From Verrucomicrobiia bacterium (lineage in GTDB: Bacteria > Verrucomicrobiota > Verrucomicrobiia > Verrucomicrobiales > DEV007): a stretch of DNA of 64,000 nt. The DNA is taken from the NCBI GenBank assembly GCA_030427505.1, contig JAUICH010000007.1, forward strand, positions 62,001-126,000, read 5' to 3'. Numbering within the stretch: the stretch's first letter is position 1; every line of letters starts with the position of its first letter. A program made the translations under genes and the position numbers. Positions 4,894-63,171 of the stretch are shown here, one piece after another. The notes beneath the pieces are model-generated. The model did no database searches. It had not been told where the DNA came from and saw only the letters and a program-made list of their open reading frames with translations.

Positions 4894-6147
4894 GTGAAAA
4901 CGCTACCTACCATCCTGTCCGGTTCCCTCCTTGCTGCCTGCATTGCCGTTGTTTTAGCTCCGCTCCGTCCCGCGTTGGGCGAAGAGAACTGGCCGCGCTT
5001 TCGCGGACCGGCGGGCACCGGTCACTCCGAGGTGACGGACCTGATGGTCGAGTGGGGACCGGAAAACGTCGTGTGGAAGGTGGAATTGAAAGGCGCGGGA
5101 CAATCCGCTCCCGTGAACTGGGGCGACCGGCTGTTTGTCACCAGCGCCTCTGAAGATGGCAAAGAGCGCTACCTCTTTTGTCTGGACCGGAACAATGGCG
5201 AGCTGATTTGGGAAGACACCCTGCCCTGCGGCTCCCCGGAGACCCCGCACAAGATGAACAGCTGGGCCACGCCCACCTGCGCGACCAATGGCGAGTACGT
5301 CGTCGCGTTCTTCGGGCCCGGTGGGCTTCATTGCTACAACCTGGAAGGCGAAAAGCAGTGGTCGAAGGAACTTGGAACCTTTCCCGGTTCCTGGGGCATC
5401 GCGGCCTCACCCATCATCCTGGGGAATCTGGTCATCCAGAACTGCGACGCCGAAGGCCAGTCCTCGCTGGTGGCGCTGGATTTGAAGACCGGTGAAGAGC
5501 GCTGGAAAACTCCCCGGGCGGACATGCCAAAGGGTGGATGGTCCACCCCCATCCTCATCGAGGCGGAGGGCCGGCCGGAACTGATCCTGAACGGCGAGTT
5601 CGGCGTGAATGCCTACGATCCCGAGACCGGTAAAGACTTGTGGTTTTGTGAGGCGTTCAACGGACGCGGTTCGCCGGTGCCGGACTACGCGAACGGATTG
5701 CTCTACGTGGTGAATGGAAAACCGGGCGATCTCTACACCGTAAAGCCGGGAGGCTCTGGCGACGTGACCGCCACGCACCGGAAGTGGCACGCGGAGCGCC
5801 GGGGCGGCCGCGATCTTCCCGCGCCCGCGGTGGTGGGAGACTACCTGCTTGTGGTGAGCATGTCAGGCATCGCCACCTGCTATGACGCGCATACGGGAGA
5901 AACGTTGTGGACCGAACGTCTGGAGGGCGAATTCGCGGGTTCTCCTCTAGTGGCCAATGGCTTGGTCTATCTCCAGACTGTCGCTGGAGGGGAGACATAC
6001 GTGATCCGCCCGGGCAAGACCCTGGACATCGTGTCACGCAATTCTCTGGGGGCGGATAGTCAGGAGCAGTTCCGCGCCTCTCTGGCGCCGATTGGCGACA
6101 AGCTTTACGCCCGTTCTTTCTCCATGCTTTACTGCATCGGATCCTGA
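4894..6147 (+). CDS. PQQ-binding-like beta-propeller protein, exported
   Basis: A 417-residue protein with a signal peptide (about residues 1-30, ending RPALGEE) followed by ENWPRFRGPAGTGHS, the start found in many Planctomycete and Verrucomicrobial 'outer membrane protein assembly factor BamB-like/PQQ repeat' proteins. Several WD/PQQ-type blade repeats are visible, for example GDRLFVTSASEDG, LFCLDRNNGELIWE and ATCYDAHTGETLWTE. No dehydrogenase catalytic residues are evident, so it is more likely a periplasmic binding or scaffold protein than an enzyme. GTG is the annotated start. It appears monocistronic. Confidence 0.85.
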   Translation: MKTLPTILSGSLLAACIAVVLAPLRPALGEENWPRFRGPAGTGHSEVTDLMVEWGPENVVWKVELKGAGQSAPVNWGDRLFVTSASEDGKERYLFCLDRNNGELIWEDTLPCGSPETPHKMNSWATPTCATNGEYVVAFFGPGGLHCYNLEGEKQWSKELGTFPGSWGIAASPIILGNLVIQNCDAEGQSSLVALDLKTGEERWKTPRADMPKGGWSTPILIEAEGRPELILNGEFGVNAYDPETGKDLWFCEAFNGRGSPVPDYANGLLYVVNGKPGDLYTVKPGGSGDVTATHRKWHAERRGGRDLPAPAVVGDYLLVVSMSGIATCYDAHTGETLWTERLEGEFAGSPLVANGLVYLQTVAGGETYVIRPGKTLDIVSRNSLGADSQEQFRASLAPIGDKLYARSFSMLYCIGS

Positions 6148-6375
6148 CAAACACACCCTGCCGCGAAGGCTCCCGAACGCCCTTCGGAAACAAGATAATG
6201 AGGTCGCGGATGTAAGGGAAAATGAGGGCCTGCGTCTTAGCTTCCCATCTGAAAGAATGCTGACGTCAATTCAGGTGGTCAAAGAGATTCCATGCCAAGA
6301 GCGGAAATAAGGAGAAATGGTCACATTTTTTTCTCGCTATTGATAGGAAACTGCGCTGAAGTGCCCAATATTGGA

Positions 6376-6406
6376 TTGACAATGGTCTAGAATTATTAGA
6401 TATACC
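6376..6406 (+). promoter_or_regulatory. Predicted promoter of the TorF-like gene
   Basis: A perfect TTGACA at 6376 precedes an AT-rich segment with TATA-like hexamers at about 6393-6406 (spacing 17-19). It lies 34 bases before the ATG at 6440 in an otherwise GC-rich genome. Prediction only. Confidence 0.5.
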
Positions 6407-6439
6407 AAATCCTCAACATCCAAGGGAAACCGTTATTCA

Positions 6440-7183
6440 ATGAAACCTACCTACCTCATCTCAGGAATCGTCGGGGTGTTTGCGCTCGCTACCAACGTTG
6501 CAAACGCCGGAGCTAAAGAAGTCGTCGTCACACCCGAACCGGCCGCGGTCGAAGAAGCAGACTTGGGCTTCACGCTGAGCGCGGGTTACGACTCCACCTA
6601 CATCTTCCGTGGCGTCGACTACGGGGATAACGGCGTCTGGGTCGGACTTGACTACGAAATCCCGAACACGCCGCTCGCTTTGGGCGTCTGGTACATCAAT
6701 CCTTCGGATGGTGATCAGATCCTGGACGACGAGCTGGACCTCTACGCGACCGTCAGCCAGAGCTACGGCGCCTTGGACGTGTGGTTGGGCTTTACCGCTT
6801 ACCTCTTCCCAGAGCTTGGCGACGGTCACACCTACGAACTCGCGACTGGCGTGGGCACCTCTCTGGGTCCGATCGACCTGGGTCTGTCCGCCGCTTACGA
6901 CTTCGAAATCGAAGGCTGGTTCTTCGAACTGACCGCTGGCCACAGCTTCCCGATCACGGATCGTATCAGCCTCGACCTCGCGGCTGGTATCTCCTACCAG
7001 ATCGACTACAACAGCAACGGCAGCGACTTCAACAACATCCTGCTCATGGCAAGCCTGCCGATCGAACTGACGGACGGAGTGGTGTTCACTCCTTACATCG
7101 CCGGAACGATCTCCCTGGACGCGGTTGAAGACTTCCAGGACGACGAACTGTTCGGCGGTGCGAGTCTTGCCGTCTCCTTCTAA
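6440..7183 (+). CDS. TorF-type outer membrane porin
   Basis: A 247-residue protein. A signal peptide of about 24 residues ends ATNVANAGA. The mature part is a series of alternating amphipathic beta-strands with many Gly, Tyr and Asp residues (TLSAGYDSTYIFRGVDYGDN) and ends in SLAVSF, with the C-terminal phenylalanine recognised by the Bam machinery. The FRG-x-D-x-G segment matches TorF-family putative porins. It would sit in the outer membrane. It has its own promoter and a strong terminator, so it is a single-gene unit. Confidence 0.85.
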   Translation: MKPTYLISGIVGVFALATNVANAGAKEVVVTPEPAAVEEADLGFTLSAGYDSTYIFRGVDYGDNGVWVGLDYEIPNTPLALGVWYINPSDGDQILDDELDLYATVSQSYGALDVWLGFTAYLFPELGDGHTYELATGVGTSLGPIDLGLSAAYDFEIEGWFFELTAGHSFPITDRISLDLAAGISYQIDYNSNGSDFNNILLMASLPIELTDGVVFTPYIAGTISLDAVEDFQDDELFGGASLAVSF

Positions 7184-7230
7184 TCTCACCTGCTAATACA
7201 GGACAAAACCTTATCCATTCCCTTGGACAG

Positions 7231-7262
7231 AAGGCCTCCCGGTGACCCCGGGAGGCCTTTTT
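7231..7262 (+). terminator. Rho-independent terminator
   Basis: Perfect 12-bp stem (7231-7242 with 7248-7259), a 5-base loop and a T-run at 7258-7262. It lies 47 bases after the TorF-like gene and ends that transcript before priA. Confidence 0.9.
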
Positions 7263-7339
7263 CGTTTTGGGAGGAAATGCATTCTGAAACAACGGGGCGG
7301 ATTGCTCGCATTCCGGCGCGGACTGACTAGGTTCATGGG

Positions 7340-9601
7340 ATGGAGACGACGGCCGCGCTGGTCCTTTTGGACGGAGCCAGCGATCTGCAATTTGACTACT
7401 CAGTTCCTCCAGAGCTGACCGGTCGTGTCGTGCCTGGTAGCCGGGTCCGGGTGCCGCTCCGGAACCGGACCGCCACCGGCACCGTGGTGGACTTGCATCC
7501 TCTCCTGGAAGAAGGCGCCAAGTTCAAGCTGAAGCCCATCGCCGATGTCATCGGCCAGGAACCCGCCGTCACCCCCCGCCTGTTGGAACTGGCGAGCTGG
7601 GTTTCCGAATACTACCTGACTTCCCGGGAAGCCGTGCTTCGCGCCATGCTTCCCCAGGCGGTACGAAAGGGGGGTGAGAACGCGGAGAAAAAGCAGTTGG
7701 CGGTCACTCTGCTGAAAGAACCCGCCGCTGAGGAGTTGGAGAAGATCGAGAAACGGGCTCCCCGCCAGGCTCAAGCCTTGCGTTACCTCCTAGACCGGAA
7801 CGGCCAGACGGACGAGCCGCTACTCCTGACCCATCTCATCGATTCCACGGGCGTCGGCCGGACATCCGTGACCGCGCTGGAGGGCGCGGGATTCGTGAGC
7901 GTGGGCAATGCCCGGGTCCACCGGGATCCCTTTGCGAACGAGACTTTTGTGGAGAGCGAAGCGCTGCCCTTGAATGAAGCGCAGCGGGAAGCGTTCGACG
8001 CGATTCACGCCGCCATCCGCGACCCCGAAAACGCAAAGCCCATTCTTCTGTATGGCGTCACCGGCAGCGGTAAGACGGAAGTCTATCTGCAAGCCATCCA
8101 GGAAACGCTGAACCTGGGAAAAGGCGCCATCGTGCTGGTGCCGGAAATCTCCCTGACACCGCAGACGGCCGAACGTTTCAAGCGCCGCTTTGCCGCCATG
8201 CAGGACCAGGTGGCCATTCTCCACAGCCACCTGTCGGAGGGCGAACGGCATGACGAGTGGCAAAAAGTCCTGCGCCGGGAAGCCCGTATCGTGATCGGGG
8301 CGCGCAGCGCCATCTTCGCGCCGTTGGACGACCTGGGGCTCATCATCGTGGATGAGGAACACGAAAACTCCTACAAGCAGGAAAACCCACCGCGTTATCA
8401 GGCGCGGGACCTGGCCGTGGTCCGGGCCCACCTGGAAAAGTGTCCGGTGGTGCTGGGCAGCGCGACGCCCTCTCTGGAGTCCTTTCACAACGCATGTACC
8501 GGGAAATACCTACAGCTGGACCTGCCGGACCGCGTGGATGACAAGGCCCTGCCGCTGATCCGGGTGGTCGACATGACCACGGAGACCCGCCACATCAAGG
8601 GCAAGGCGCAACTGGCCATTCTGTCCCGGAAGCTCGGCATGGAAATTCAGCGGCGCCTGGACGAGGGGGAGCAGGCGATCCTGTTTCTCAACCGGCGCGG
8701 CTTTGCCCGTTCTTTTCTCTGCCCGGAATGCGGCTACGTGGCCGACTGCCAGCATTGCAGCGTGACGCTGACCTACCACCGGGAGGACGAGCGCTTGATC
8801 TGCCATGTCTGCGGATTTCGCAAAATGCCACCCCGGCGCTGCCCAAAGTGCGGAGACCAGGGGGTGCTCTACGCGGGCTACGGCACGGAAAAGGTGGAGG
8901 GATTGCTGAAACAGGCCTTCCCCCAGGCCCGCATTGCCCGGGTGGATACCGACACCATGCGGCGGAAAAATCAGCTTCGCGACACGCTCAACGCCTTCAA
9001 GGCCAAGAAGATCGATCTCCTGCTTGGCACCCAGATGATCGCGAAAGGTCTCCACTTTCCCAATGTGACCCTGGTCGGCATCCTGAACGCGGACATCGGG
9101 CTGCACACCCCGGATTTCCGGGCCGGCGAACGGACCTTTCAGTTGCTGACTCAGGTGGCCGGCCGGGCGGGCCGGGGAGATGTGAAGGGCGAGGTGATTA
9201 TTCAGACCTTTACCCCGCATCATCCCTCCATCCAGTTTGCCCGCCACCACGACTTCACGGGCTACGCCGCCCAGGAACTGGACCTGCGGCGGCAGTTTGA
9301 GTATCCGCCCTTCCGCCATGTGACCCTGGTGACGGTCCGGTCCGCGCACCAGAGGCGCGCGGAATTCTCCGCCGAGACCCTGCACCGCCGGATCAAGGAG
9401 AAGCTTCCCAAAGGCATTGTCTTAAACGATCCGCTGCCGTCACCTTTGGAAAAAGCCCATGGCCAGTTCCGCTACCAGATGATGCTCCGCTGCGCGCACC
9501 CGAGGCGAATCGCGAAGCATCTCTCGACCGTGTTGAAAGACCTCTCCTTTCCCGAAGACGTCATCGTGAGCATTGACGTGGACGCCTATAACCTGAGCTG
9601 A
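7340..9601 (+). CDS. priA: Primosomal protein N', replication restart helicase PriA
   Basis: A 753-residue 3'-5' DNA helicase that recognises stalled forks and reloads the replisome. Visible in order: N-terminal DNA-binding domain, Walker A GVTGSGKTEVY (about residue 240), DEEH box (about 339), then the zinc-binding insert with paired cysteines CPECGYVADCQHC, CHVCG and CPKCG (about 461-515), and the C-terminal helicase motifs ending QVAGRAGRGDVKGEV. The length matches bacterial PriA. It heads a same-strand group with yicC, gmk and coaC, though gaps of 30-45 bp are present. Confidence 0.97.
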   Translation: METTAALVLLDGASDLQFDYSVPPELTGRVVPGSRVRVPLRNRTATGTVVDLHPLLEEGAKFKLKPIADVIGQEPAVTPRLLELASWVSEYYLTSREAVLRAMLPQAVRKGGENAEKKQLAVTLLKEPAAEELEKIEKRAPRQAQALRYLLDRNGQTDEPLLLTHLIDSTGVGRTSVTALEGAGFVSVGNARVHRDPFANETFVESEALPLNEAQREAFDAIHAAIRDPENAKPILLYGVTGSGKTEVYLQAIQETLNLGKGAIVLVPEISLTPQTAERFKRRFAAMQDQVAILHSHLSEGERHDEWQKVLRREARIVIGARSAIFAPLDDLGLIIVDEEHENSYKQENPPRYQARDLAVVRAHLEKCPVVLGSATPSLESFHNACTGKYLQLDLPDRVDDKALPLIRVVDMTTETRHIKGKAQLAILSRKLGMEIQRRLDEGEQAILFLNRRGFARSFLCPECGYVADCQHCSVTLTYHREDERLICHVCGFRKMPPRRCPKCGDQGVLYAGYGTEKVEGLLKQAFPQARIARVDTDTMRRKNQLRDTLNAFKAKKIDLLLGTQMIAKGLHFPNVTLVGILNADIGLHTPDFRAGERTFQLLTQVAGRAGRGDVKGEVIIQTFTPHHPSIQFARHHDFTGYAAQELDLRRQFEYPPFRHVTLVTVRSAHQRRAEFSAETLHRRIKEKLPKGIVLNDPLPSPLEKAHGQFRYQMMLRCAHPRRIAKHLSTVLKDLSFPEDVIVSIDVDAYNLS

Positions 9602-15977: not shown

Positions 15978-16076
15978 GCGAACGTTCGCGCGCGGGCCTT
16001 CAGCCCGCAATTGCTAACTCAAATGAATACCAAGGGTTGAAACCCTTGGCTTTGTGCTGCCGGGCTTTCAGCCCGG
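15978..16076. repeat. REP-like palindrome cluster, right copy
   Basis: Palindromes GCGGGCCTTCAGCCCGC-like, CCAAGGGTT/AACCCTTGG and CCGGGCTTTCAGCCCGG, joined by CTTTGTGCTG, which is the reverse complement of the left cluster's linker. The cluster is an inverted copy of 15375-15470 on the other side of the RAYT gene. The remaining 16077-16299 shows no gene. Confidence 0.78.
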
Positions 16077-49640: not shown

Positions 49641-49735
49641 GTTCGCTGGCGGGCCTTCAGCCCGCAACAGTCCGGGCACGTGGTCCCCAGGGATAAATCC
49701 CTGGGCTTTGTGCTGTCGGGCCTTCAGCCCTTTGT
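49641..49735. repeat. Orphan REP-like cluster
   Basis: Same modules and order as 15978-16076: GCGGGCCTTCAGCCCGC, then CCCAGGGATAAATCCCTGGG, the linker CTTTGTGCTG and TCGGGCCTTCAGCCC, without any RAYT gene. It lies in the 466-base gap 49567-50032 before ilvC; the rest of the gap shows no gene. Confidence 0.75.
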
Positions 49736-56178: not shown

Positions 56179-56247
56179 TCCCCCGTAGCTTAACGAAGAG
56201 CGCCACCCTTCGGGGTGGAGGTCCCGGAGCGAAACCGGGCGGGGCAA
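56179..56247 (+). tRNA. tRNA-like RNA with UUCG tetraloop in place of the anticodon loop
   Basis: T-arm CCCGG-AGCGAAA-CCGGG, acceptor TCCCCCG/CGGGGCA with one mismatch, D-arm GCTT/GAGC. The anticodon arm is CCACCC-TTCG-GGGTGG, a perfect stem closed by the very stable UUCG tetraloop; read as a 6-base loop it would be TCG (Arg). No CCA is encoded. Probably not a decoding tRNA. Confidence 0.65.
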
Positions 56248-56271
56248 CTTTCCAAATTCAGTTTTCTCAAA

Positions 56272-56361
56272 AGGCGCGCGCCGGAGCTTAGAGAGCCGGG
56301 CCGGTCTGTAAAACCGGTGCCCGAAAGGGTTGAGAGGGTGCAAATCCCTCGGCGCCTACCA
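56272..56361 (+). tRNA. tRNA-Tyr(GTA)
   Basis: Class II with long variable arm, as normal for bacterial Tyr. Stem CCGGT/ACCGG, loop CTGTAAA (GTA), T-loop TGCAAAT, D-loop TTAGAG (AG), CCA encoded. Swapped elbow. Confidence 0.88.
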
Positions 56362-56380
56362 CTTTCCAACCATCTGGAAT

Positions 56381-56469
56381 TCGCCCGTAGCTCAATGGTA
56401 GAGCGCCCGGCTGTTAACCGGGAGGCCCTTATAAGGTGCGTCGTGGTTCGAGTCCACGCGGGTGAGCCA
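56381..56469 (+). tRNA. tRNA-Asn(GTT) with long variable arm
   Basis: Acceptor TCGCCCG/CGGGTGA, stem CCCGG/CCGGG, loop CTGTTAA (GTT). A 19-base variable region with CCTT/AAGG stem is unusual for Asn. T-loop TTCGAGT with D-loop GG: canonical elbow. CCA encoded. Confidence 0.85.
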
Positions 56470-56488
56470 ATTTCGCCAATCTTTCAAC

Positions 56489-56580
56489 GGAGGTCCGCAA
56501 GGCTGGCGTGCTAATCGGTCTTGAAAACCGTGAGTACCTCTGACCGGGTCGTGAGAGTTCGATCCTCTCGGCCTCCGCCA
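56489..56580 (+). tRNA. tRNA-Ser(TGA)
   Basis: Class II. Acceptor GGAGGTC/GGCCTCC, loop CTTGAAA (TGA), long variable arm, T-loop TTCGATC, D-loop GG, CCA encoded. Canonical. Confidence 0.9.
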
Positions 56581-56597
56581 TTTTCCAAACTAACAAA

Positions 56598-56673
56598 GGT
56601 CCAGTAGCTCAATTAGCAGAGCGTCCGCCTGATAAGCGGGAGGCAGTTGGGGCAGAACCAACCTGGACTACCA
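56598..56673 (+). tRNA. tRNA-Ile(GAT)
   Basis: Acceptor GGTCCAG/CTGGACT, loop CTGATAA (GAT). T-loop GGCAGAA lacks TTC; D-loop AATTAGCA has A18-G19. CCA encoded. Confidence 0.85.
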
Positions 56674-56696
56674 TTTTTTCGACCCAGAAAAGAAAC

Positions 56697-56770
56697 GGCT
56701 GCATAGCTCACGCAGGAGAGCGTTGGTCTGAAGTACCGGAGGGCAGGGTGCGACTCCCTGGCAGCTACCG
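56697..56770 (+). tRNA. tRNA-Phe(GAA)
   Basis: Stem TTGGT/ACCGG, loop CTGAAGT (GAA), T-loop TGCGACT, D-loop GCAGGA (AG). The 3' end reads CCG instead of CCA; the acceptor has a weak first pair. Confidence 0.75.
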
Positions 56771-56785
56771 TCTTTCCTAACCGAA

Positions 56786-56859
56786 GGCCCGTTGGGGTAA
56801 TAGTAACCTGCCTGTTTGTCTCACAGGAACCGCCGGAGCGTAACCGGCACGGGCCGCCA
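56786..56859 (+). tRNA. tRNA-Asp(GTC), copy 1
   Basis: Acceptor GGCCCGT/ACGGGCC, stem CCTGT/ACAGG, loop TTGTCTC (GTC, with T37). T-loop AGCGTAA, D-loop TAGT (AG), CCA encoded. Confidence 0.82.
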
Positions 56860-56875
56860 CTTTCCCTGACAAAGG

Positions 56876-56951
56876 GGTCCATTGGTGCAGCCAGTCAGCA
56901 CACCGGCCCGTCAAGCCGGAGACACCGGAGCAAAGCCGGTATGGACCGCCA
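56876..56951 (+). tRNA. tRNA-Asp(GTC), copy 2, with C33
   Basis: Acceptor GGTCCAT/ATGGACC, stem CCGGC/GCCGG, loop CCGTCAA: position 33 is C, not the near-universal T. T-loop AGCAAAG, D-loop CAGTC (AG), CCA encoded. Confidence 0.78.
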
Positions 56952-56967
56952 TTTTCGATTCAACCAA

Positions 56968-57041
56968 CTTCCCGTGGTGTAAGAGAGGCATCTCACTCTG
57001 CGAAGGTGAGGGACCGGGTGCAATTCCTGGCGGGAAGGCCA
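56968..57041 (+). tRNA. tRNA-Arg(GCG)
   Basis: Acceptor CTTCCCG/CGGGAAG, loop CTGCGAA (GCG), T-loop TGCAATT, D-loop with AG, CCA encoded. Confidence 0.83.
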
Positions 57042-57071
57042 ATTTCTTAACCACCTAGAAACTTTCTCAAC

Positions 57072-57146
57072 TCCTCCGTGGCAGAACAGGTATGCACCCG
57101 GCTTTTAACCGGGGTGAAGTAGGTGCAAGTCCTACCGGGGGAACCA
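57072..57146 (+). tRNA. tRNA-Lys(TTT)
   Basis: Acceptor TCCTCCG/CGGGGGA, stem CCCGG/CCGGG, loop CTTTTAA (TTT), T-loop TGCAAGT, D-loop ACAGGTA (AG), CCA encoded. Confidence 0.87.
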
Positions 57147-57181
57147 ATTTTTCAATCCGGACGCTCTGGCGGCGTTCAGAT

Positions 57182-57256
57182 GGGGACCATGGTGTAAGAG
57201 CAGCATTCGGCTCTGTGACAGCCGCGGTGCGGGTGCGAATCCCGCTGGTCCCCCCA
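57182..57256 (+). tRNA. tRNA-His(GTG)
   Basis: Carries the His-specific extra G(-1) opposite C73, then GGGACCA/TGGTCCC. Stem CGGCT/AGCCG, loop CTGTGAC (GTG), T-loop TGCGAAT, D-loop AAGAGCA (AG), CCA encoded. The retained G(-1) argues for real charging. Confidence 0.87.
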
Positions 57257-57277
57257 CTTTACATCCATCCAAAAAAT

Positions 57278-57353
57278 GACGCCGTGGCGCGAGCAGTGAG
57301 GCAGCCGGCTGCAACCCGGCTTTACGAAGGTGCAACTCCTTCCGGCGTCTCCA
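57278..57353 (+). tRNA. tRNA-Cys(GCA)
   Basis: Acceptor GACGCCG/CGGCGTC, stem GCCGG/CCGGC, loop CTGCAAC (GCA), T-loop TGCAACT, D-loop GCAGTG (AG), CCA encoded. Confidence 0.86.
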
Positions 57354-57370
57354 TTTTCTGATCCCAGAAT

Positions 57371-57445
57371 GTGCCGTTCGTCTAATTAGAAAGATACCTG
57401 GCTTCCAACCAGGCGATGCCGGGGCAGATCCGGCACGGTGCTCCA
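57371..57445 (+). tRNA. tRNA-Gly(TCC)
   Basis: Acceptor GTGCCGT/ACGGTGC, stem CCTGG/CCAGG, loop CTTCCAA (TCC). T-loop GGCAGAT, D-loop ATTAGAA (AG), CCA encoded. Confidence 0.86.
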
Positions 57446-57473
57446 CTTTTCTTTCCACCCAAACCACCATCAA

Positions 57474-57570
57474 GGAGGTCTGAAGCGGCCAAGGTGCCGC
57501 CCGCGTCTGCTAAACGAAGGGTTCCCAGGGTCACCTGGAGAATGTGGAGCATGTCCACCGGCCTCCGCCA
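57474..57570 (+). tRNA. tRNA-Ser(GCT)
   Basis: Class II, 97 bases. Acceptor GGAGGTC/GGCCTCC, loop CTGCTAA (GCT) on a weak stem, long variable arm, T-loop AGCATGT, CCA encoded. Confidence 0.75.
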
Positions 57571-57592
57571 CTTTCCTGATCCGCACTGATAC

Positions 57593-57666
57593 GGGGGCTT
57601 AGTTCAAAAGCAGAACGTCTCTCTTACACGGAGAAGAAGGAGGAGCGTTACCTCCAGTCCTCACCA
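57593..57666 (+). tRNA. tRNA-Val(TAC)
   Basis: Acceptor GGGGGCT/AGTCCTC, stem TCTCT/GGAGA, loop CTTACAC (TAC), T-stem GGAGG/CCTCC with loop AGCGTTA, D-loop AAAAGCA (AG), CCA encoded. Confidence 0.84.
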
Positions 57667-57685
57667 GTTTCTCTCAATCAAGATG

Positions 57686-57756
57686 AAGGGCTTAGTTTAA
57701 AAGTAGAATGCCTCCTATTCAAGGAGGAGGCGGGGGAGCGTTACCTCCAGCCCTTC
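57686..57756 (+). tRNA. tRNA-Glu(TTC) with A33
   Basis: Acceptor AAGGGCT/AGCCCTT, stem CCTCC/GGAGG, loop TATTCAA: A at position 33. T-loop AGCGTTA, D-loop AAAAGTA (AG). CCA is not encoded (TGG follows). Confidence 0.7.
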
Positions 57757-57774
57757 TGGCTTCTTCTCTAGAAT

Positions 57775-57848
57775 GAGAGCTTAGTTCAAAAGTAGAACCC
57801 CTCTCCGACGCAGAGGTGACGATGGAGCGTTACCATCAGCTCTCACCA
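57775..57848 (+). tRNA. tRNA-Val(GAC) with C33
   Basis: Acceptor GAGAGCT/AGCTCTC, stem CCTCT/AGAGG, loop CCGACGC: C at position 33. T-loop AGCGTTA, D-loop with AG, CCA encoded. Confidence 0.76.
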
Positions 57849-57869
57849 CTTTTTTTCCCGAACTGAAGC

Positions 57870-57943
57870 GGGGGCTTAGCTCAAAAGAAGAGCGCTTCTC
57901 TCACGCAGAAGAGACGGCGGCGCGATACCGTCAGCCCTTACCA
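57870..57943 (+). tRNA. tRNA-Val(CAC)
   Basis: Acceptor GGGGGCT/AGCCCTT, stem CTTCT/AGAAG, loop CTCACGC (CAC), T-stem GGCGG/CCGTC with loop CGCGATA, D-loop AAAAGAA (AG), CCA encoded. Close relative of the preceding three genes. Confidence 0.8.
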
Positions 57944-57982
57944 TTTTTTGCGCCCTCATCCAGAGAGCCTGCCAAACGGAAC

Positions 57983-58059
57983 GCTTCCATAGCTCAATGG
58001 AGCAGAGCGCCTGGCTTCGGACCAGGAGGTTGCAGGTTCGAGTCCTGCTGGGAGTGCCA
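57983..58059 (+). tRNA. tRNA-Arg(TCG), canonical
   Basis: Acceptor GCTTCCA/TGGGAGT, stem CCTGG/CCAGG, loop CTTCGGA (TCG), T-loop TTCGAGT, D-loop ATGGAGCA (GG), CCA encoded. Confidence 0.92.
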
Positions 58060-58085
58060 GTTTTTCGGACCACAAGATTTTCAAC

Positions 58086-58159
58086 GCGGCATTCGTTTAA
58101 TAGTAAGACGCGGGCTTGCCAGTTCCGTAACCCCGGAGCGTTACCGGGATGCCGCACCA
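58086..58159 (+). tRNA. tRNA-Gly(GCC)
   Basis: Acceptor GCGGCAT/ATGCCGC, loop TTGCCAG (GCC) on an imperfect stem, T-stem CCCGG/CCGGG with loop AGCGTTA, D-loop TAGT (AG), CCA encoded. Confidence 0.74.
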
Positions 58160-58185
58160 TTTTATCATTCGTTTAAGACCAACTC

Positions 58186-58274
58186 GCCCGGTGTTCCCCA
58201 AGTGGCGTTCTAAACCACAGGCAGAAAATCAATGGGGGTAGAGCCGTGGGGTGCAACTCCTCCACCGGGTTCCA
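58186..58274 (+). tRNA. tRNA-like RNA, isotype undetermined
   Basis: Acceptor GCCCGGT/ACCGGGT with CCA and T-loop TGCAACT are clear. The interior does not fold as a standard cloverleaf: GTGG/CCAC encloses CGTTCTAAA (TCT if a 7-base loop), leaving no normal D-arm and a very long variable region. Total 89 bases. Confidence 0.55.
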
Positions 58275-58291
58275 ATCCTTTTCTTCTCAAC

Positions 58292-58368
58292 TCCCCACGT
58301 GGCAGAGACAGCAATGCACTCCTCTCGTAAAGGAGACCATGCCGGTGCGACTCCGGCCGGGGGAACCA
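58292..58368 (+). tRNA. tRNA-Thr(CGT)
   Basis: Stem CTCCT/AGGAG, loop CTCGTAA (CGT), T-loop TGCGACT, D-loop ACAGCA (AG), CCA encoded. The acceptor TCCCC-A-CG/CGGGGGA has a bulged A. Confidence 0.82.
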
Positions 58369-58398
58369 TTTTCTTTTCGAATTCTAACCCACATCAAT

Positions 58399-58474
58399 GG
58401 CCCCGTAGCCCAATAGCAGAGGCGCCGGTCTCAGAAGCCGGAGGTTGAAGGTGCAAATCCTTCCGGGGCTACCA
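58399..58474 (+). tRNA. tRNA-Leu(CAG) with short variable loop
   Basis: Acceptor GGCCCCG/CGGGGCT, loop CTCAGAA (CAG). The variable loop is only AGGTT, class I, whereas bacterial Leu tRNAs are class II. T-loop TGCAAAT, D-loop AATAGCA (AG), CCA encoded. Confidence 0.84.
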
Positions 58475-58499
58475 TTTTCACAACAAGCAAACCAACCAC

Positions 58500-58575
58500 G
58501 CCCGTGTGGCCCAGCAGCAGAGGCAATCGACTTAAAATCGATGAGTCGCGGGTGCAACTCCCGCCACGGGTACCA
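58500..58575 (+). tRNA. tRNA-Leu(TAA) with short variable loop
   Basis: Acceptor GCCCGTG/CACGGGT, stem ATCGA/TCGAT, loop CTTAAAA (TAA), 5-base variable loop, T-loop TGCAACT, D-loop GCAGCA (AG), CCA encoded. Again class I instead of class II. Confidence 0.84.
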
Positions 58576-58602
58576 ACCTCACTTTTACTAACAAAGCCAA
58601 AA

Positions 58603-58726
58603 CGCACGGTAGTGACCGCGAGAGATCCTTCGGAGAATCTGAGTGCTACTCAGAAGCAGGTTCGACTCCTGCCCGGGCCTCCTTATATATGGCCCGGATT
58701 CATGCTCTCCACCTGTTCTCCGTGCG
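58603..58726 (+). ncRNA. Y RNA-like gene 1
   Basis: Terminal stem CGCACGG/CCGTGCG, conserved GGTAGTGA at the 5' side and TTCTCC at the 3' side. The interior has a tRNA T-arm (GCAGG-TTCGACT-CCTGC) directly followed by a closed acceptor-like stem CCGGGCC/GGCCCGG capped by a loop, so the tRNA part is circularly permuted. No D-arm could be seen. Confidence 0.8.
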
Positions 58727-58740
58727 ACCCTCTTTTCCAT

Positions 58741-58811
58741 GCCCCTGTCGTCTATAGGTAGGATAACGGATTTTCATTCCGTCGAACCGGGTTCGATTCC
58801 CGGCGGGGGTA
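58741..58811 (+). tRNA. tRNA-Glu(TTC), canonical elbow
   Basis: Acceptor GCCCCTG/CGGGGGT, stem ACGGA/TCCGT, loop TTTTCAT (TTC), T-loop TTCGATT, D-loop ATAGGTA (GG). No encoded CCA. Direct contrast to the next gene. Confidence 0.88.
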
Positions 58812-58831
58812 CTTCTTTTCCTTTAACTAAA

Positions 58832-58907
58832 GGGCCTATCGTCTATGTCAGTAGGACGGCGAGCTTTCAATTCGCAAAACCGGGTGCGAGTCCCGGTAGG
58901 CCTGCCA
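58832..58907 (+). tRNA. tRNA-Glu(TTC), swapped elbow
   Basis: Acceptor GGGCCTA/TAGGCCT, loop CTTTCAA (TTC), T-loop TGCGAGT, D-loop ATGTCAGTA (AG), CCA encoded. Same isotype as its neighbour but with A18 and G55. Confidence 0.87.
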
Positions 58908-58939
58908 TTTTTAAAAACCAACACTAGCGGGAACGAGTT

Positions 58940-59061
58940 TGCGCGGCAGTGAGGCTGAGAGTTCCTTCGGTTAATCTGGCGAGAGCCAGAAAACAGGTTC
59001 GAGTCCTGTCCGGCCCCCCATTCGACGGGGCCGGATGACTTTCCCCGGTATTCTCCGCGCA
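58940..59061 (+). ncRNA. Y RNA-like gene 2
   Basis: Stem TGCGCGG/CCGCGCA, GGCAGTGAGG at the 5' side, TATTCTCC at the 3' side. Contains hairpin TCTGGC-GAGA-GCCAGA, a T-arm ACAGG-TTCGAGT-CCTGT and a capped acceptor-like stem (CCGGCCCC/GGGGCCGG). No D-arm. Confidence 0.8.
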
Positions 59062-59088
59062 TTTCTTTGCCGCTTCTTGCAATCAAAA

Positions 59089-59162
59089 TCACTTGGCAGT
59101 GAGGAGCTGGGTTACTTCGTTAAGGTAAACGCAAAACACCCACTCCGTATTTCTCCAAGTGA
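59089..59162 (+). ncRNA. Y RNA-like gene 3, minimal form
   Basis: Perfect 8-bp stem TCACTTGG/CCAAGTGA, GGCAGTGAGGAGCTGGGTTAC and CTCCGTATTTCTCC as in its neighbours, but only a short loop without any tRNA-like module. A farther stem TTCTTGCAA/TTGCAAGAA flanks it. Confidence 0.8.
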
Positions 59163-59192
59163 CCACTTTTGCAAGAATTTGAGACAGTAAAT

Positions 59193-59330
59193 CGCCTGGC
59201 AGCGAGGAATCGGGTTACTTCGACTCAGAATCGCGTGGTGCGGGTTCGAATCCCGCCTTCCCGGACATTGATCGGGAAGTAGCTTAATCGGTAGAGCACG
59301 TTACAGTCCCGCTCCGTTTTTCTCCGGGCG
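59193..59330 (+). ncRNA. Y RNA-like gene 4 with permuted tRNA module
   Basis: Stem CGCCTGG/CCGGGCG, GGCAGCGAGG and CTCCGTTTTTCTCC. Inside, in order: T-arm GCGGG-TTCGAAT-CCCGC, 3' acceptor strand CTTCCCG, loop, 5' acceptor strand CGGGAAG, D-arm GCTTAATCGGTAGAGC. That is a whole tRNA top in permuted order, with canonical G18-G19 and TTC. Confidence 0.88.
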
Positions 59331-59371
59331 GCCTGTCTCTTTTCTTTTATCGCCGTCTAGCGGCAACAAAA

Positions 59372-59511
59372 CATCTGGTAGCGAGGAACTGGGTTACTTC
59401 GCCTCATAAGCGCGTGGCCGCGGGTTCGAGTCCCGCCCTCCCGATGATCTGACCGGGAGGTAGCTCAGTAGGTAGAGCACGTATCGTTCCCAATCCGTTA
59501 TTCTCCAGATG
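59372..59511 (+). ncRNA. Y RNA-like gene 5 with permuted tRNA module
   Basis: Stem CATCTGG/CCAGATG, GGTAGCGAGG and TCCGTTATTCTCC. T-arm with TTCGAGT, capped acceptor CCTCCCG/CGGGAGG, then D-arm GCTCAGTAGGTAGAGC. Same build as gene 4 with canonical elbow bases. Confidence 0.88.
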
Positions 59512-59530
59512 ACCCTTTCCAACACCGGAA

Positions 59531-59625
59531 GCCATTTTGTCCAGCAGTGAGCTGAGGAGTTCTTCGATAGCAGACCCTAAGGGGTTAGCCCGGCACACAC
59601 GCCTCAGCGGTTCTCTCTGGATGGC
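59531..59625 (+). ncRNA. Y RNA-like gene 6
   Basis: Nested stems GCCA/TGGC, TCCAG/CTGGA and CTGAGG/CCTCAG with AGCAGTGAG on the 5' side and TTCTCTC on the 3' side. The loop holds CCCTAAGGGG but no T-arm. Nearest to rsr. Confidence 0.68.
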
Positions 59626-59725
59626 ACTCTCCTGCATCCGTCACTCTCTCCACTACCCGGCAGGTGGTGGAAGTAAACGAAAACAACCAAACCAAACAGA
59701 CACTGAAAGGAGGTCCTGCCGCCTT

Positions 59726-61153
59726 ATGAAATTCAATACCCAAGCACAAAACACCCAGCGCACGCTGAACCTGGCTGGCGGCGAGGCCATCGTGCAGTCT
59801 CCAAAAATGGAGTTGCTGAGCATCCTGCTGACCAGCTTTGTGGAAGACCAGTTCTACCGGAAGAGCGACCAGACGCTGGTGCGCCTCCGTGAATTGATGC
59901 ATGTCATCGGCGACCACAAGTTCGTCGCGAAAGCGGCGGTCTATGCGCGCACGCAGGCTGGGATGCGCTCCATCACGCATGTGGTGGCGGCTGACCTGGC
60001 GAAGAGCGTGAAGGGCGCCGACTGGACGAAGGACTTCTTCGCCCGCGTGGTGCATCGTCCGGACGACGTGCTGGAAATTCTGGCACGCTACGTGGCCGAG
60101 CATAAAAAGCCGCTGCCTAACTCCCTGAAAAAGGGACTCGGCCGCGCGCTGGCACGCTTTGACGCCTACCAACTGGCCAAGTACCGGGGCGAAACGCGCG
60201 CTCTGAAACTGGTGGACGCGGTAAACCTGCTGCACCCGCCACACACGGAAGCGCTGGGCGCCCTGGTGAACGGTACGCTGAAGCCAGCGGAAACGTGGGA
60301 AACGAAGCTGACCCAGGCCGGTCAGGAAGCAAAGACGGAACACGCGAAAGCCGCCAAAAAGTCCCAGGCATGGGCAGAGCTGATCGAAAGCCGGAAGATC
60401 GGCTACTTCGCTCTGCTGCGTAACCTGCGCAACATCCTGGAACAGGCGCCTAAGCTGGTCGATCCGGTCTGCAAGCTGCTGACCGACGAGAAGCTCATCC
60501 GGCGCTCCCTGGTGCTGCCGTTCCGGTTCCGCACGGCGATCGATGCGATTCAAAGCAAAACGCTGACGAATCAGCAGAAGATCTTCCGGGCGCTGAACCA
60601 GGCGGTGGATACGTCTCTGCGCAACGTGCCGCGTTTCGCGGGACGCACCCTGATCGCAGTGGACAGTTCTGCGTCGATGATCGGGCGACCGATGAAAATC
60701 GCATCTCTCTTCGCGGCAGTTTTGTATAAGTCGAACTGTTTGGATCTGATGCTTTTCAGCAGTGACGCGAAATACGTCATGATGAATTGTGATGACTCTA
60801 CGCTGACGATCGCGAAGCGCATCGAAGATAAGGCGCAATGTGGGGGAACTAACTTCCACGCCATCTTCCAGAATGCCGATAGAGCGTACGCCCGAGTGAT
60901 CATCCTATCCGACATGCAAGGATGGATGGGTTACCACGCGCCGAAGGACAGCTTCAACGCCTACGTGAGAGCACAGGGCGGTCACCGTCCGCGCGTCTTC
61001 AGTTTTGACCTGGCCGGCCACGGCACCCTGCAGTTCCCGGAAACGGGAGTGTACTGCCTGGCGGGCTTCAGCGACAAGACCATGGATACGCTGCGGTTCC
61101 TCGAAGAGGACAAGACCACGCTGCTGAAGGAAATCGAAGCGATCGAGTTCTGA
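59726..61153 (+). CDS. rsr: Ro60 (TROVE) RNA-binding protein
   Basis: A 475-residue bacterial Ro60 orthologue. The start at 59726 has a strong AAAGGAGGT site 20 bases before it; the longer frame covers Y RNA sequence. Residues 1-300 are the HEAT-like TROVE ring (LLTSFVEDQFYRKSDQTLVRL, AVYARTQAGMRSITHVVAADLA, YRGETRALKLVDAVNLLHPP). The C-terminal vWFA domain has the MIDAS motif AVDSSASMIGRP and CGGTNFHAIFQNAD. Ro proteins bind misfolded RNAs and Y RNAs and, in bacteria, guide exonucleases such as PNPase. Six Y-like genes lie directly upstream. A hairpin terminator follows. Confidence 0.95.
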   Translation: MKFNTQAQNTQRTLNLAGGEAIVQSPKMELLSILLTSFVEDQFYRKSDQTLVRLRELMHVIGDHKFVAKAAVYARTQAGMRSITHVVAADLAKSVKGADWTKDFFARVVHRPDDVLEILARYVAEHKKPLPNSLKKGLGRALARFDAYQLAKYRGETRALKLVDAVNLLHPPHTEALGALVNGTLKPAETWETKLTQAGQEAKTEHAKAAKKSQAWAELIESRKIGYFALLRNLRNILEQAPKLVDPVCKLLTDEKLIRRSLVLPFRFRTAIDAIQSKTLTNQQKIFRALNQAVDTSLRNVPRFAGRTLIAVDSSASMIGRPMKIASLFAAVLYKSNCLDLMLFSSDAKYVMMNCDDSTLTIAKRIEDKAQCGGTNFHAIFQNADRAYARVIILSDMQGWMGYHAPKDSFNAYVRAQGGHRPRVFSFDLAGHGTLQFPETGVYCLAGFSDKTMDTLRFLEEDKTTLLKEIEAIEF

Positions 61154-61381: not shown

Positions 61382-61993
61382 ATGAACGCATCCGTTTTAC
61401 ATAAGAACATTGTGCTGGTCCTGAACCGGAACTGGCAGGCCATCAACGTGACCACGCCGGCTCTCGCTTTTTGCCAGATGGCGACGGATGTGGCGACCGC
61501 CCTGGATATCCAGGGGAAGGAAGCCATGGTCCCGGTGCGCTGGGACGTCTGGCGGACCCTACCCGTGCGGGACGGAGACGCCAGCATCGGCACGGCCCAG
61601 GGACACGTTCGCGTGCCCACCGTGGTGGTGCTGAGCAACTACTCCCGGGTGCCGATCAAGCGTCCGAAGTTCAGCGCGCGAAACCTGTGGCAACGCGACG
61701 AGGGCCGTTGCCAGTACACGGGACGAGAACTGAAACCCGGCGAAGGCAACATCGACCACATCCTGCCGCGTTCCCGCGGCGGGGGCACCACGTGGGAAAA
61801 CTGCGTGCTGGCCTCCGTGGAAGTGAACGGCCGGAAGGCCGACCGCACGCCGGAAGAAGCAGGACTGAAACTGCTCCGCGCGCCGCGGGCGCCGAGGGAT
61901 GTGCCGGTGACCGTGCTGCTGAACAACCCGCACGACATTCCGGACTGGGAACCTTTCCTGATCCGGAAAGACAAGAATCAATCAACGAATTAA
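61382..61993 (+). CDS. HNH endonuclease-like protein
   Basis: A 203-residue cytoplasmic protein. The N-terminal third (VLVLNRNWQAINVTTPALAF) is the small domain common in stand-alone HNH proteins. The nuclease core is WQRDEGRCQYTGRELKPGEG, NIDHILPRSRGGGTTWENCV (HH/N positions) and the extended NGRKADRTPEEA. One zinc cysteine (CQY) is visible; the usual second CxxC is TGRE here, so metal binding may differ. In this setting RNA may be the substrate, but related proteins cut DNA; that cannot be decided. It follows rsr after a terminator. Confidence 0.88.
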   Translation: MNASVLHKNIVLVLNRNWQAINVTTPALAFCQMATDVATALDIQGKEAMVPVRWDVWRTLPVRDGDASIGTAQGHVRVPTVVVLSNYSRVPIKRPKFSARNLWQRDEGRCQYTGRELKPGEGNIDHILPRSRGGGTTWENCVLASVEVNGRKADRTPEEAGLKLLRAPRAPRDVPVTVLLNNPHDIPDWEPFLIRKDKNQSTN

Positions 61994-62406: not shown

Positions 62407-63171
62407 ATGGAATGGACCTTTATCATAGTTTTTGCCGTCTTGCTGGCAGCCGCGATCGCCGGCTTCCGCATCCTGCATAGCCTGTATCAGGAGGTCACCA
62501 TCTGGGACTACCAGGTGGGGCTGCATTACAAGCATGGCCAGTACCGTGAAACGCTGAAGGCTGGGCGTCACCGCTTGTGGGGCCAGGGCCATGGAGTCGT
62601 GCTGTATGACACGCGACTCATGGAAATGGTCGTGAAAGGCCAGGAACTGCTGACCGCGGACGACGCGCCTGTGACGGTTTCCGCCGTGGCAAACTACCGC
62701 ATCGCCGATGCGCTGAAAGTTTCCCAGGCGGCCCAGAATCCTGTGCAACTCCTCTATGGAGAAGTGCAGTTGGCCCTGCGCCGCGTGATCGGCGCGGAGG
62801 AGCTGGATGCCGTGTTGCAGAAGAAAGCCGCCTTTGGTCAGGCCCTGTTTGACCAAGTGGTGCCAAGAGCTGCCGCCCTCGGCTACGAAGTCGACAGCGT
62901 GGATGTCCGGGACCTGTCCGTCTCCGGCGAGCTGAAGCGTGTCTGCGCCGGTGTGTTGCAGGCGCGCAAGGAAGCCCTGGCGGAACTGGAACGCGCCCGC
63001 GGACAGGCAGCCGCCCTGCGCACCCTGGCCAATGCCGCACGCGTCTATGAAAAGAACCCAGGTCTGGTGCGCTTGCGCTACCTGGATGTGGTGGAGAAAT
63101 CCGCCCAAGGCATGGGCAACACCATCGTGGTGGGTGGCCCGGAAAAATGGACCGTGGAGGTGGCTCCTTGA
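62407..63171 (+). CDS. Slipin / SPFH (band 7) protein
   Basis: A 254-residue protein with one N-terminal membrane helix (WTFIIVFAVLLAAAIAGFRI), then the SPFH domain: VTIWDYQVGLHYKHGQ, VLYDTRLMEMVVKGQELLTADDAPVTV and LRRVIGAEELDAVL, ending with a helical region (GELKRVCAGVLQARKEALAEL) and YLDVVEKSAQGMGNTIVV. Slipins assemble on the inner membrane. A slipin next to Ro60 and RNA-repair genes is a recurring arrangement in bacterial RNA-repair loci. A good AGGAG site precedes the ATG. Confidence 0.9.
   Translation: MEWTFIIVFAVLLAAAIAGFRILHSLYQEVTIWDYQVGLHYKHGQYRETLKAGRHRLWGQGHGVVLYDTRLMEMVVKGQELLTADDAPVTVSAVANYRIADALKVSQAAQNPVQLLYGEVQLALRRVIGAEELDAVLQKKAAFGQALFDQVVPRAAALGYEVDSVDVRDLSVSGELKRVCAGVLQARKEALAELERARGQAAALRTLANAARVYEKNPGLVRLRYLDVVEKSAQGMGNTIVVGGPEKWTVEVAP

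Follow-up and report, generated by a model that had tools for sequence, protein, structure and literature searches.

Why should an array of tRNA genes depart, almost throughout, from the nucleotides that shape the elbow of tRNA, where D-loop and T-loop meet, beside Y RNA genes that keep them? G18, U54, U55 and the contact between positions 18 and 55 belong to the least variable features of tRNA. The question is raised by an island in a 6.4 Mb Verrucomicrobiia genome, within the 64,000-nucleotide stretch analysed here (positions 62001-126000 of its contig, hereafter the window). The island runs in the order tRNA array, six Y RNA genes, Ro60, HNH protein and Band 7 protein. Judged from the genes, the elbow of the array tRNAs is recoded, not abandoned. 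Elbows are denoted below by T-loop positions 54-56 (TTC or NGC) and D-loop positions 18-19 (GG or AG). The six Y RNA genes (58604-59627) are interleaved with the last two array tRNAs, as follows:

56179..58907, + strand: array of 26 tRNA-like genes, 22 with T-loop NGC and nearly all with D-loop AG (loop-blind cloverleaf parser and inspection by eye)
56381..56469, + strand: tRNA-Asn(GTT), TTC/GG exception in the array (parser)
56490: tRNA-Ser, TTC/GG exception in the array (parser)
57983..58059, + strand: tRNA-Arg(TCG), TTC/GG exception in the array (parser)
58604..58734, + strand: Y RNA 1, T-arm with TTC (58656), without a D-arm
58741..58812, + strand: tRNA-Glu(TTC), TTC/GG exception in the array (parser)
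58941..59060, + strand: Y RNA 2, T-arm with TTC (58993), without a D-arm
59091..59167, + strand: Y RNA 3, short, without a tRNA-like module or T-arm
59193..59330, + strand: Y RNA 4, permuted tRNA-like module, T-loop TTCGAAT, D-loop AATCGGTA
59372..59511, + strand: Y RNA 5, permuted tRNA-like module, T-loop TTCGAGT, D-loop AGTAGGTA
59539..59627, + strand: Y RNA 6, without a recognisable T-arm

The parser gave no credit for the sequence of the D- or T-loop, a few degenerate genes were added by eye, and most of the array tRNAs also pass the Rfam gathering score for tRNA. The canonical elbow, G18-G19 with U54-U55-C56, is absent from 22 of the 26 genes; only the Asn, Ser, Arg and Glu genes read TTC, all four of them with GG, and A18-G19 is found in nearly all of the others. 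Host tRNAs are TTC/GG in all 33 parsed from three genomes, and the four T-arms of the window's Y RNAs likewise all read TTC, in comparison to four of the 26 array tRNAs (Fisher p = 0.0026). An earlier note on this DNA had reported this elbow contrast for Y RNAs 4 and 5, along with their gene ends, and both are borne out. In the first gene of the array (56179-56252), the anticodon arm is able to form a cUUCGg tetraloop, the acceptor stem is imperfect and CCA is lacking.

A search with four Ro60 query sequences yielded 79 genome loci (80 of the 348 Ro relatives found being kept) and 78 viral loci. In the Verrucomicrobiota islands, 430 of 485 distinct array tRNAs are NGC, and all 20 isotypes are recoded, class II tRNAs included. 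Cultured carriers of NGC arrays include Chthoniobacter flavus Ellin428 (L116) and Brevifollis gellanilyticus (L072). The two loops switch together: among distinct Verrucomicrobiota array tRNAs, 391 are AG/NGC, 33 GG/TTC, 22 GG/NGC and none AG/TTC, a co-switch of positions 18 and 55 with a Fisher value of 1e-35 when relatedness is ignored. Pairs were counted in 490 NGC tRNAs, phage arrays included, in which C56 is fixed by the definition of the class. In this set the 53-61 pair is G-C in 99% and U54 is missing from 36%, with the 54-58 pair being T-A in 308, G-G in 54, A-T in 53, C-A in 47 and C-C in 14. Mutual information between positions 54 and 58 is 0.93 bits, in comparison to 0.11 bits (maximum 0.21) after shuffling within anticodons, and is 0.03 bits between positions 54 and 57. 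The recoding thus consists of A18 with G55 in place of G18 with U55, and of changes at 54 that accompany changes at 58, with G53-C61, C56 and G19 retained. As the change at 54-58 is compensated, the tertiary contacts appear to be kept, and because 18-55 and 54-58 both change with compensation while G19-C56 persists, the claim that these tRNAs had abandoned the elbow does not hold. In most NGC tRNAs the sequence G55-C56-R57-A58 is GNRA-like and may replace the U-turn of U55.

Other features bear on whether the array tRNAs are functional and inherited. Their discriminator bases mostly suit the isotype (U for Cys; G for Asp, Asn, Gln and Trp; A for Leu, Ile, Val, Pro and Ala), and CCA is usually encoded. 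Array tRNAs are mostly 73-88% alike to those of the same anticodon in other islands, in comparison to mostly 58-72% for host tRNAs, and this greater likeness between arrays suggests that the set is inherited. Since the contrast with the Y RNAs is clade-wide and the recoding is concerted over all isotypes, it is probably under selection. In combination, these comparisons identify a concerted and compensated recoding of an inherited tRNA set, in bacteria and in phages, in an RNA-repair setting.

The explanation tentatively favoured here is that the array is a set of replacement tRNAs, inherited and chargeable, within an RNA-repair island, and that its elbow was recoded to evade an enzyme reading U54/U55 or G18. 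The array tRNAs would still fold as an L and be matured and charged, and the set would keep translation running when host tRNAs are damaged. Without U55, and often without U54 and G18 as well, they would no longer serve as substrates for an enzyme that recognises the usual elbow; the likeliest candidate is an effector of phage-host conflict that cleaves or modifies tRNA. The Y RNAs would be ordinary YrlA-type RNAs that keep the elbow of their family to serve Ro60, and need not be decoys. Among known systems, CdiA-CT E479 cleaves the T-loop between its T and its pseudouridine (PMC9086364), the D-loop is contacted by AriB (PMC12409363), and changes in the anticodon loop let phage tRNAs evade tRNases (PMC10264068). 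A more far-reaching version, possible but held with some doubt, is that the arrays form a near-complete orthogonal translation set with a class-wide recoded elbow (A18-G55, and G18-C55 too in phage L135), which escapes a U55- or G18-reading immune effector or toxin and is exchanged between Verrucomicrobiota and large phages.

Several observations weigh against this explanation. Array tRNA-Gly carries A73 in 30 of 32 cases in NGC islands (e.g., at 58086 in the window), whereas parsed host tRNA-Gly carries U73, and C33 replaces U33 in 14% of NGC tRNAs; the charging or decoding of some array tRNAs is therefore doubtful. In the clade 34 array tRNAs stay canonical, recurrently Glu(TTC), Met(CAT) and some Arg, and elsewhere Ro islands and arrays manage without recoding. 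A comparison of 40 NGC with 23 TTC islands, for which the choice of open reading frames was imperfect in GC-rich loci, revealed no gene that would account for the recoding of some islands and not others; as candidates, HNH also occurs in TTC islands, and RtcB, RlaP and Band 7 are patchy. Finally, no elbow-reading attacker or nuclease was identified in the islands examined. In part the earlier interpretation stands, as resistant substitute tRNAs fit the RNA-repair and phage context.

The strongest rival dispenses with an attacker. It proposes that U54, U55 and G18 were lost so that array tRNAs fold and work without TruB and the enzymes for m5U54 and Gm18, or evade their quality control, which would be useful when tRNAs must be made quickly. 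G55 cannot become pseudouridine, the frequent lack of U54 points the same way, and the GNRA-like turn could hold the loop without pseudouridine. The host encodes TruB and a protein of the U5-methyltransferase family. However, TTC is kept by arrays of other phyla that presumably serve the same task, and this account is judged unlikely.

Another possibility is a founder effect, in which the clade's array traces back to tRNAs that made a single switch without adaptive cause, and later compensation merely preserved the fold. A Ro60 tree of 64 labelled loci, built with a quick method, places the Ro60 of the window among Verrucomicrobiota. The NGC label requires two changes on this tree in comparison to a mean of 20 when shuffled, and forms one clade with 99% support in the Shimodaira-Hasegawa-like approximate likelihood ratio test (SH-aLRT); L111, a long-branched TTC row, falls within it. 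This single clade agrees with a founder, as do the relatedness of array tRNAs between islands and the apparent shift of some anticodons. On the other hand, the recoding is carried by all isotypes, class II tRNAs among them, and there is little drift back over deep divergence. In addition, the phage contig L135, which encodes a tail sheath, has an array (5945-9354) beside Ro60 and HNH that mixes 18-55 types: nine G18-U55, seven G18-C55 and six A18-G55. The partner at 18 fits in each case, so U55 was replaced along two separate routes within this array. A single non-adaptive switch is judged improbable.

Within the NGC clade there are two phage lineages, L181 and L184/L203. L181 is a 225 kb contig with a T4-like portal, a gp25 baseplate protein, a tail fibre, Ro, HNH and 30 NGC tRNAs, and L184/L203 have a collagen-like tail fibre. 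The possibility that viral-labelled NGC contigs are mis-binned chromosome is rejected for L181 on its portal, gp25 baseplate and tail fibre, and is dismissed with less certainty for L184. L181 also encodes a transfer-messenger RNA (1155-1509). In the phage collection, the closest Ro60 relative (50% identity) belongs to L047 (LR745206.1), a huge phage of 634 kb, with no tRNA found within 12 kb.

If the tRNAs are recoded, it remains to be asked whether the elbow of the Y RNAs is special as well. Y RNA 4 consists of a T-arm (59240-59256), an acceptor-like hairpin and a D-arm (59282-59297); Y RNA 5 has its T-arm at 59420-59436 and its D-arm at 59463-59478, so that both contain the permuted T-arm/acceptor/D-arm module, with GG in both D-loops. 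Energy folding supports Y RNA 5 (z -2.3) but not Y RNA 4 (z -0.03). Because folding alone fails for Y RNA 4, support is taken from covariation instead: over 30 modules, 98.5% of cells are paired, a level reached in 0 of 500 shuffles. Two apparent tRNAs here, an ARAGORN tRNA-Met at 59374-59445 and an Rfam tRNA match at 59273-59444, are artefacts assembled from parts of Y RNAs 4 and 5. The Y genes share a closing stem, a candidate for the Ro60-binding basal stem, and common motifs (GGYAGYGAG-like and TTCTCC-like). Y RNAs 4 and 5 match the Rfam YrlA family (RF02553) with 38.8 and 31.5 bits (E 1e-6 and 1e-4), below its curated score of 69 bits, and are best described as diverged YrlA relatives short of curated-level membership. 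In the YrlA consensus the T-loop reads UUCGA and the D-arm contains GGUAGAGC, and YrlA is a substrate of TruB and DusA according to a review (PMC8394870). As TTC/GG is the family consensus, the elbow of Y RNAs 4 and 5 needs no special explanation, and the notion of the Y RNAs as the special partner is rejected; the change to be explained sits in the tRNAs.

Comparison across islands bears on this point. Y modules outside the window were collected with a covariance model of the module. In Verrucomicrobiota all 43 are TTC/GG, beside array tRNAs that are TTC in 34 of 464 (related sequences and not independent). Outside Verrucomicrobiota, 16 Y modules are TTC/GG and three are NGC/AG (L090 of Saprospiraceae, L123 of Aureispira, and L100). 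Array tRNAs, NGC in Verrucomicrobiota, are GG/TTC in Bacteroidota (118/123) and TTC also in Acidobacteria L111, Chloroflexota-labelled L109 and others. Both RNAs are TTC in Acidobacteria L111 and in Bacteroidota L080, L115, L125 and L102, and the arrangement is reversed, with NGC/AG Y RNAs beside TTC/GG tRNAs, in L090 (9683-9826), L123 (128-290) and perhaps L100. Some Verrucomicrobiota Y modules without a D-arm carry TGC, which suggests that the Y rule is strict only where a D-arm partner is present.

These distributions bear on the remaining accounts. The earlier note had read the Y RNAs as ordinary-elbow decoys and the tRNAs as resistant substitutes, with a single elbow-reading enzyme as the common adversary and joint selection of both states, and had named related islands with one elbow type in both RNAs as the outcome that would tell against this. 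The contrast is perfect for the Y modules of Verrucomicrobiota, and Hughes and colleagues had earlier suggested that YrlA acts as a competitive inhibitor, or decoy (PMC7790460). However, Y RNAs are TTC/GG by family default, also where the tRNAs are TTC, and L090 and L123 are reversed. The expected contrast is thus upheld across Verrucomicrobiota, but islands of the opposing kind occur outside the clade; a strict opposition of Y RNA and tRNA elbows is rejected as a rule, the idea that the Y RNAs keep theirs as decoys is not supported, and joint selection of both states is quite improbable. Least probable of all is that a common island factor must distinguish Y RNAs from array tRNAs, so that one of them adopts an alternative elbow: the reversed islands and the failure to find an island with both RNAs NGC, among modules with a D-arm, would suit it, but TTC/TTC islands are common outside Verrucomicrobiota, independent switches are few, the Y RNAs of L090 and L100 are very similar, and in NGC islands TGC occurs in some of the Y modules that lack a D-arm.

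Downstream of the Y RNA genes, the island continues with three protein genes:

59726..61153, + strand: Ro60/Rsr protein with a TROVE domain (PF05731, 81.4 bits; TROVE proteins of the PDB matched)
61382..61993, + strand: HNH protein typical of tRNA arrays (in 34/40 NGC islands and 3/23 TTC islands)
62407..63171, + strand: SPFH/Band 7 (slipin-like) protein (in 9/40 NGC islands)

Two tandem RlaP-family RNA-repair nucleotidyltransferases follow just past the window, 3' of the island (L050:128-910 and 907-1968). RlaP is present in 11 of 40 NGC islands and in none of the TTC islands, and RtcB lies inside the sister islands L041 and L042.

Several components of this island are already known, namely tRNA arrays, Ro/Y/RtcB islands and escape tRNAs. 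The Y RNAs share with YrlA-type Y RNA and its partner Rsr/Ro60 the permuted module, the elbow and the adjoining Ro60 gene, but occur here as six genes in the one island, with module variants with and without a D-arm or an anticodon-like arm. The combination of Ro60, Y RNAs and RNA-repair genes recalls the rsr-yrlBA-rtcBA operon, which has been tied to tRNA damage (PMC7790460). The window island, in contrast, adds a whole replacement tRNA array and lacks the arrangement in which RtcB/RtcA adjoin Ro60 and the Y genes, as RlaP adjoins the island and RtcB is on another contig. With its 26 tRNA-like genes packed into 2.7 kb and an HNH gene at 61382, the array also qualifies as a tRNA array unit. 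Such units in mycobacteria and the trn operon of Anabaena, for which an anti-defence or translational-stress role has been proposed, have the same dense, redundant tRNAs and, in M. avium, an HNH gene (PMC5966550; PMC12803027; PMC10272220). Unlike these, the window array is recoded at the elbow and joined to Ro60 and Y RNAs; recoding is not a general property of tRNA arrays, as the M. avium plasmid array is TTC in 24 of 25 tRNAs and the phages Tunturi_5 and Mx1 are TTC.

The tRNase-escaping tRNAs of phages are likewise a redundant set altered in comparison to host tRNAs, as is found here too in large phages (PMC10264068; PMC11555353). Their escape depends on changed anticodon loops or on which tRNAs are chosen, whereas here it would lie in the tertiary elbow of almost all tRNAs. 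CdiA-CT E479 is an example of a tRNase that targets the T-loop at its T and pseudouridine, but the surroundings of the islands yielded no toxin of this kind, and the substrate of CdiA-CT E479 according to a review is tRNA2-Arg (PMC9086364). Eukaryotic tRNA-Ala has unusual tertiary pairs in which 54-58 is swapped and the T-loop kept, pairs that a database survey found to be absent from bacterial tRNAs (PMC7566577); in the islands, by contrast, 54-58 and 18-55 both vary, and across isotypes. No published A18-G55 tRNA set was found in the open-access literature searched. The clade-wide compensated swap indicates that the shape of the elbow can survive recoding, and the NGC set provides natural tRNAs unable to carry pseudouridine 55. 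The recoding also points to a U55- or G18-reading enzyme as a possible selective force in phage-host conflict.

Two further observations concern other RNAs. Upstream of two Opitutaceae arrays, a conserved leader-like region (L042:5090-5440; L041:9800-9380, minus strand) has a terminator-like hairpin and a repeated stem, and is possibly a regulatory RNA. Within the window itself, two Acido-Lenti-1 RNAs (Rfam RF01687) are located at 16030-16075 and 49686-49731.
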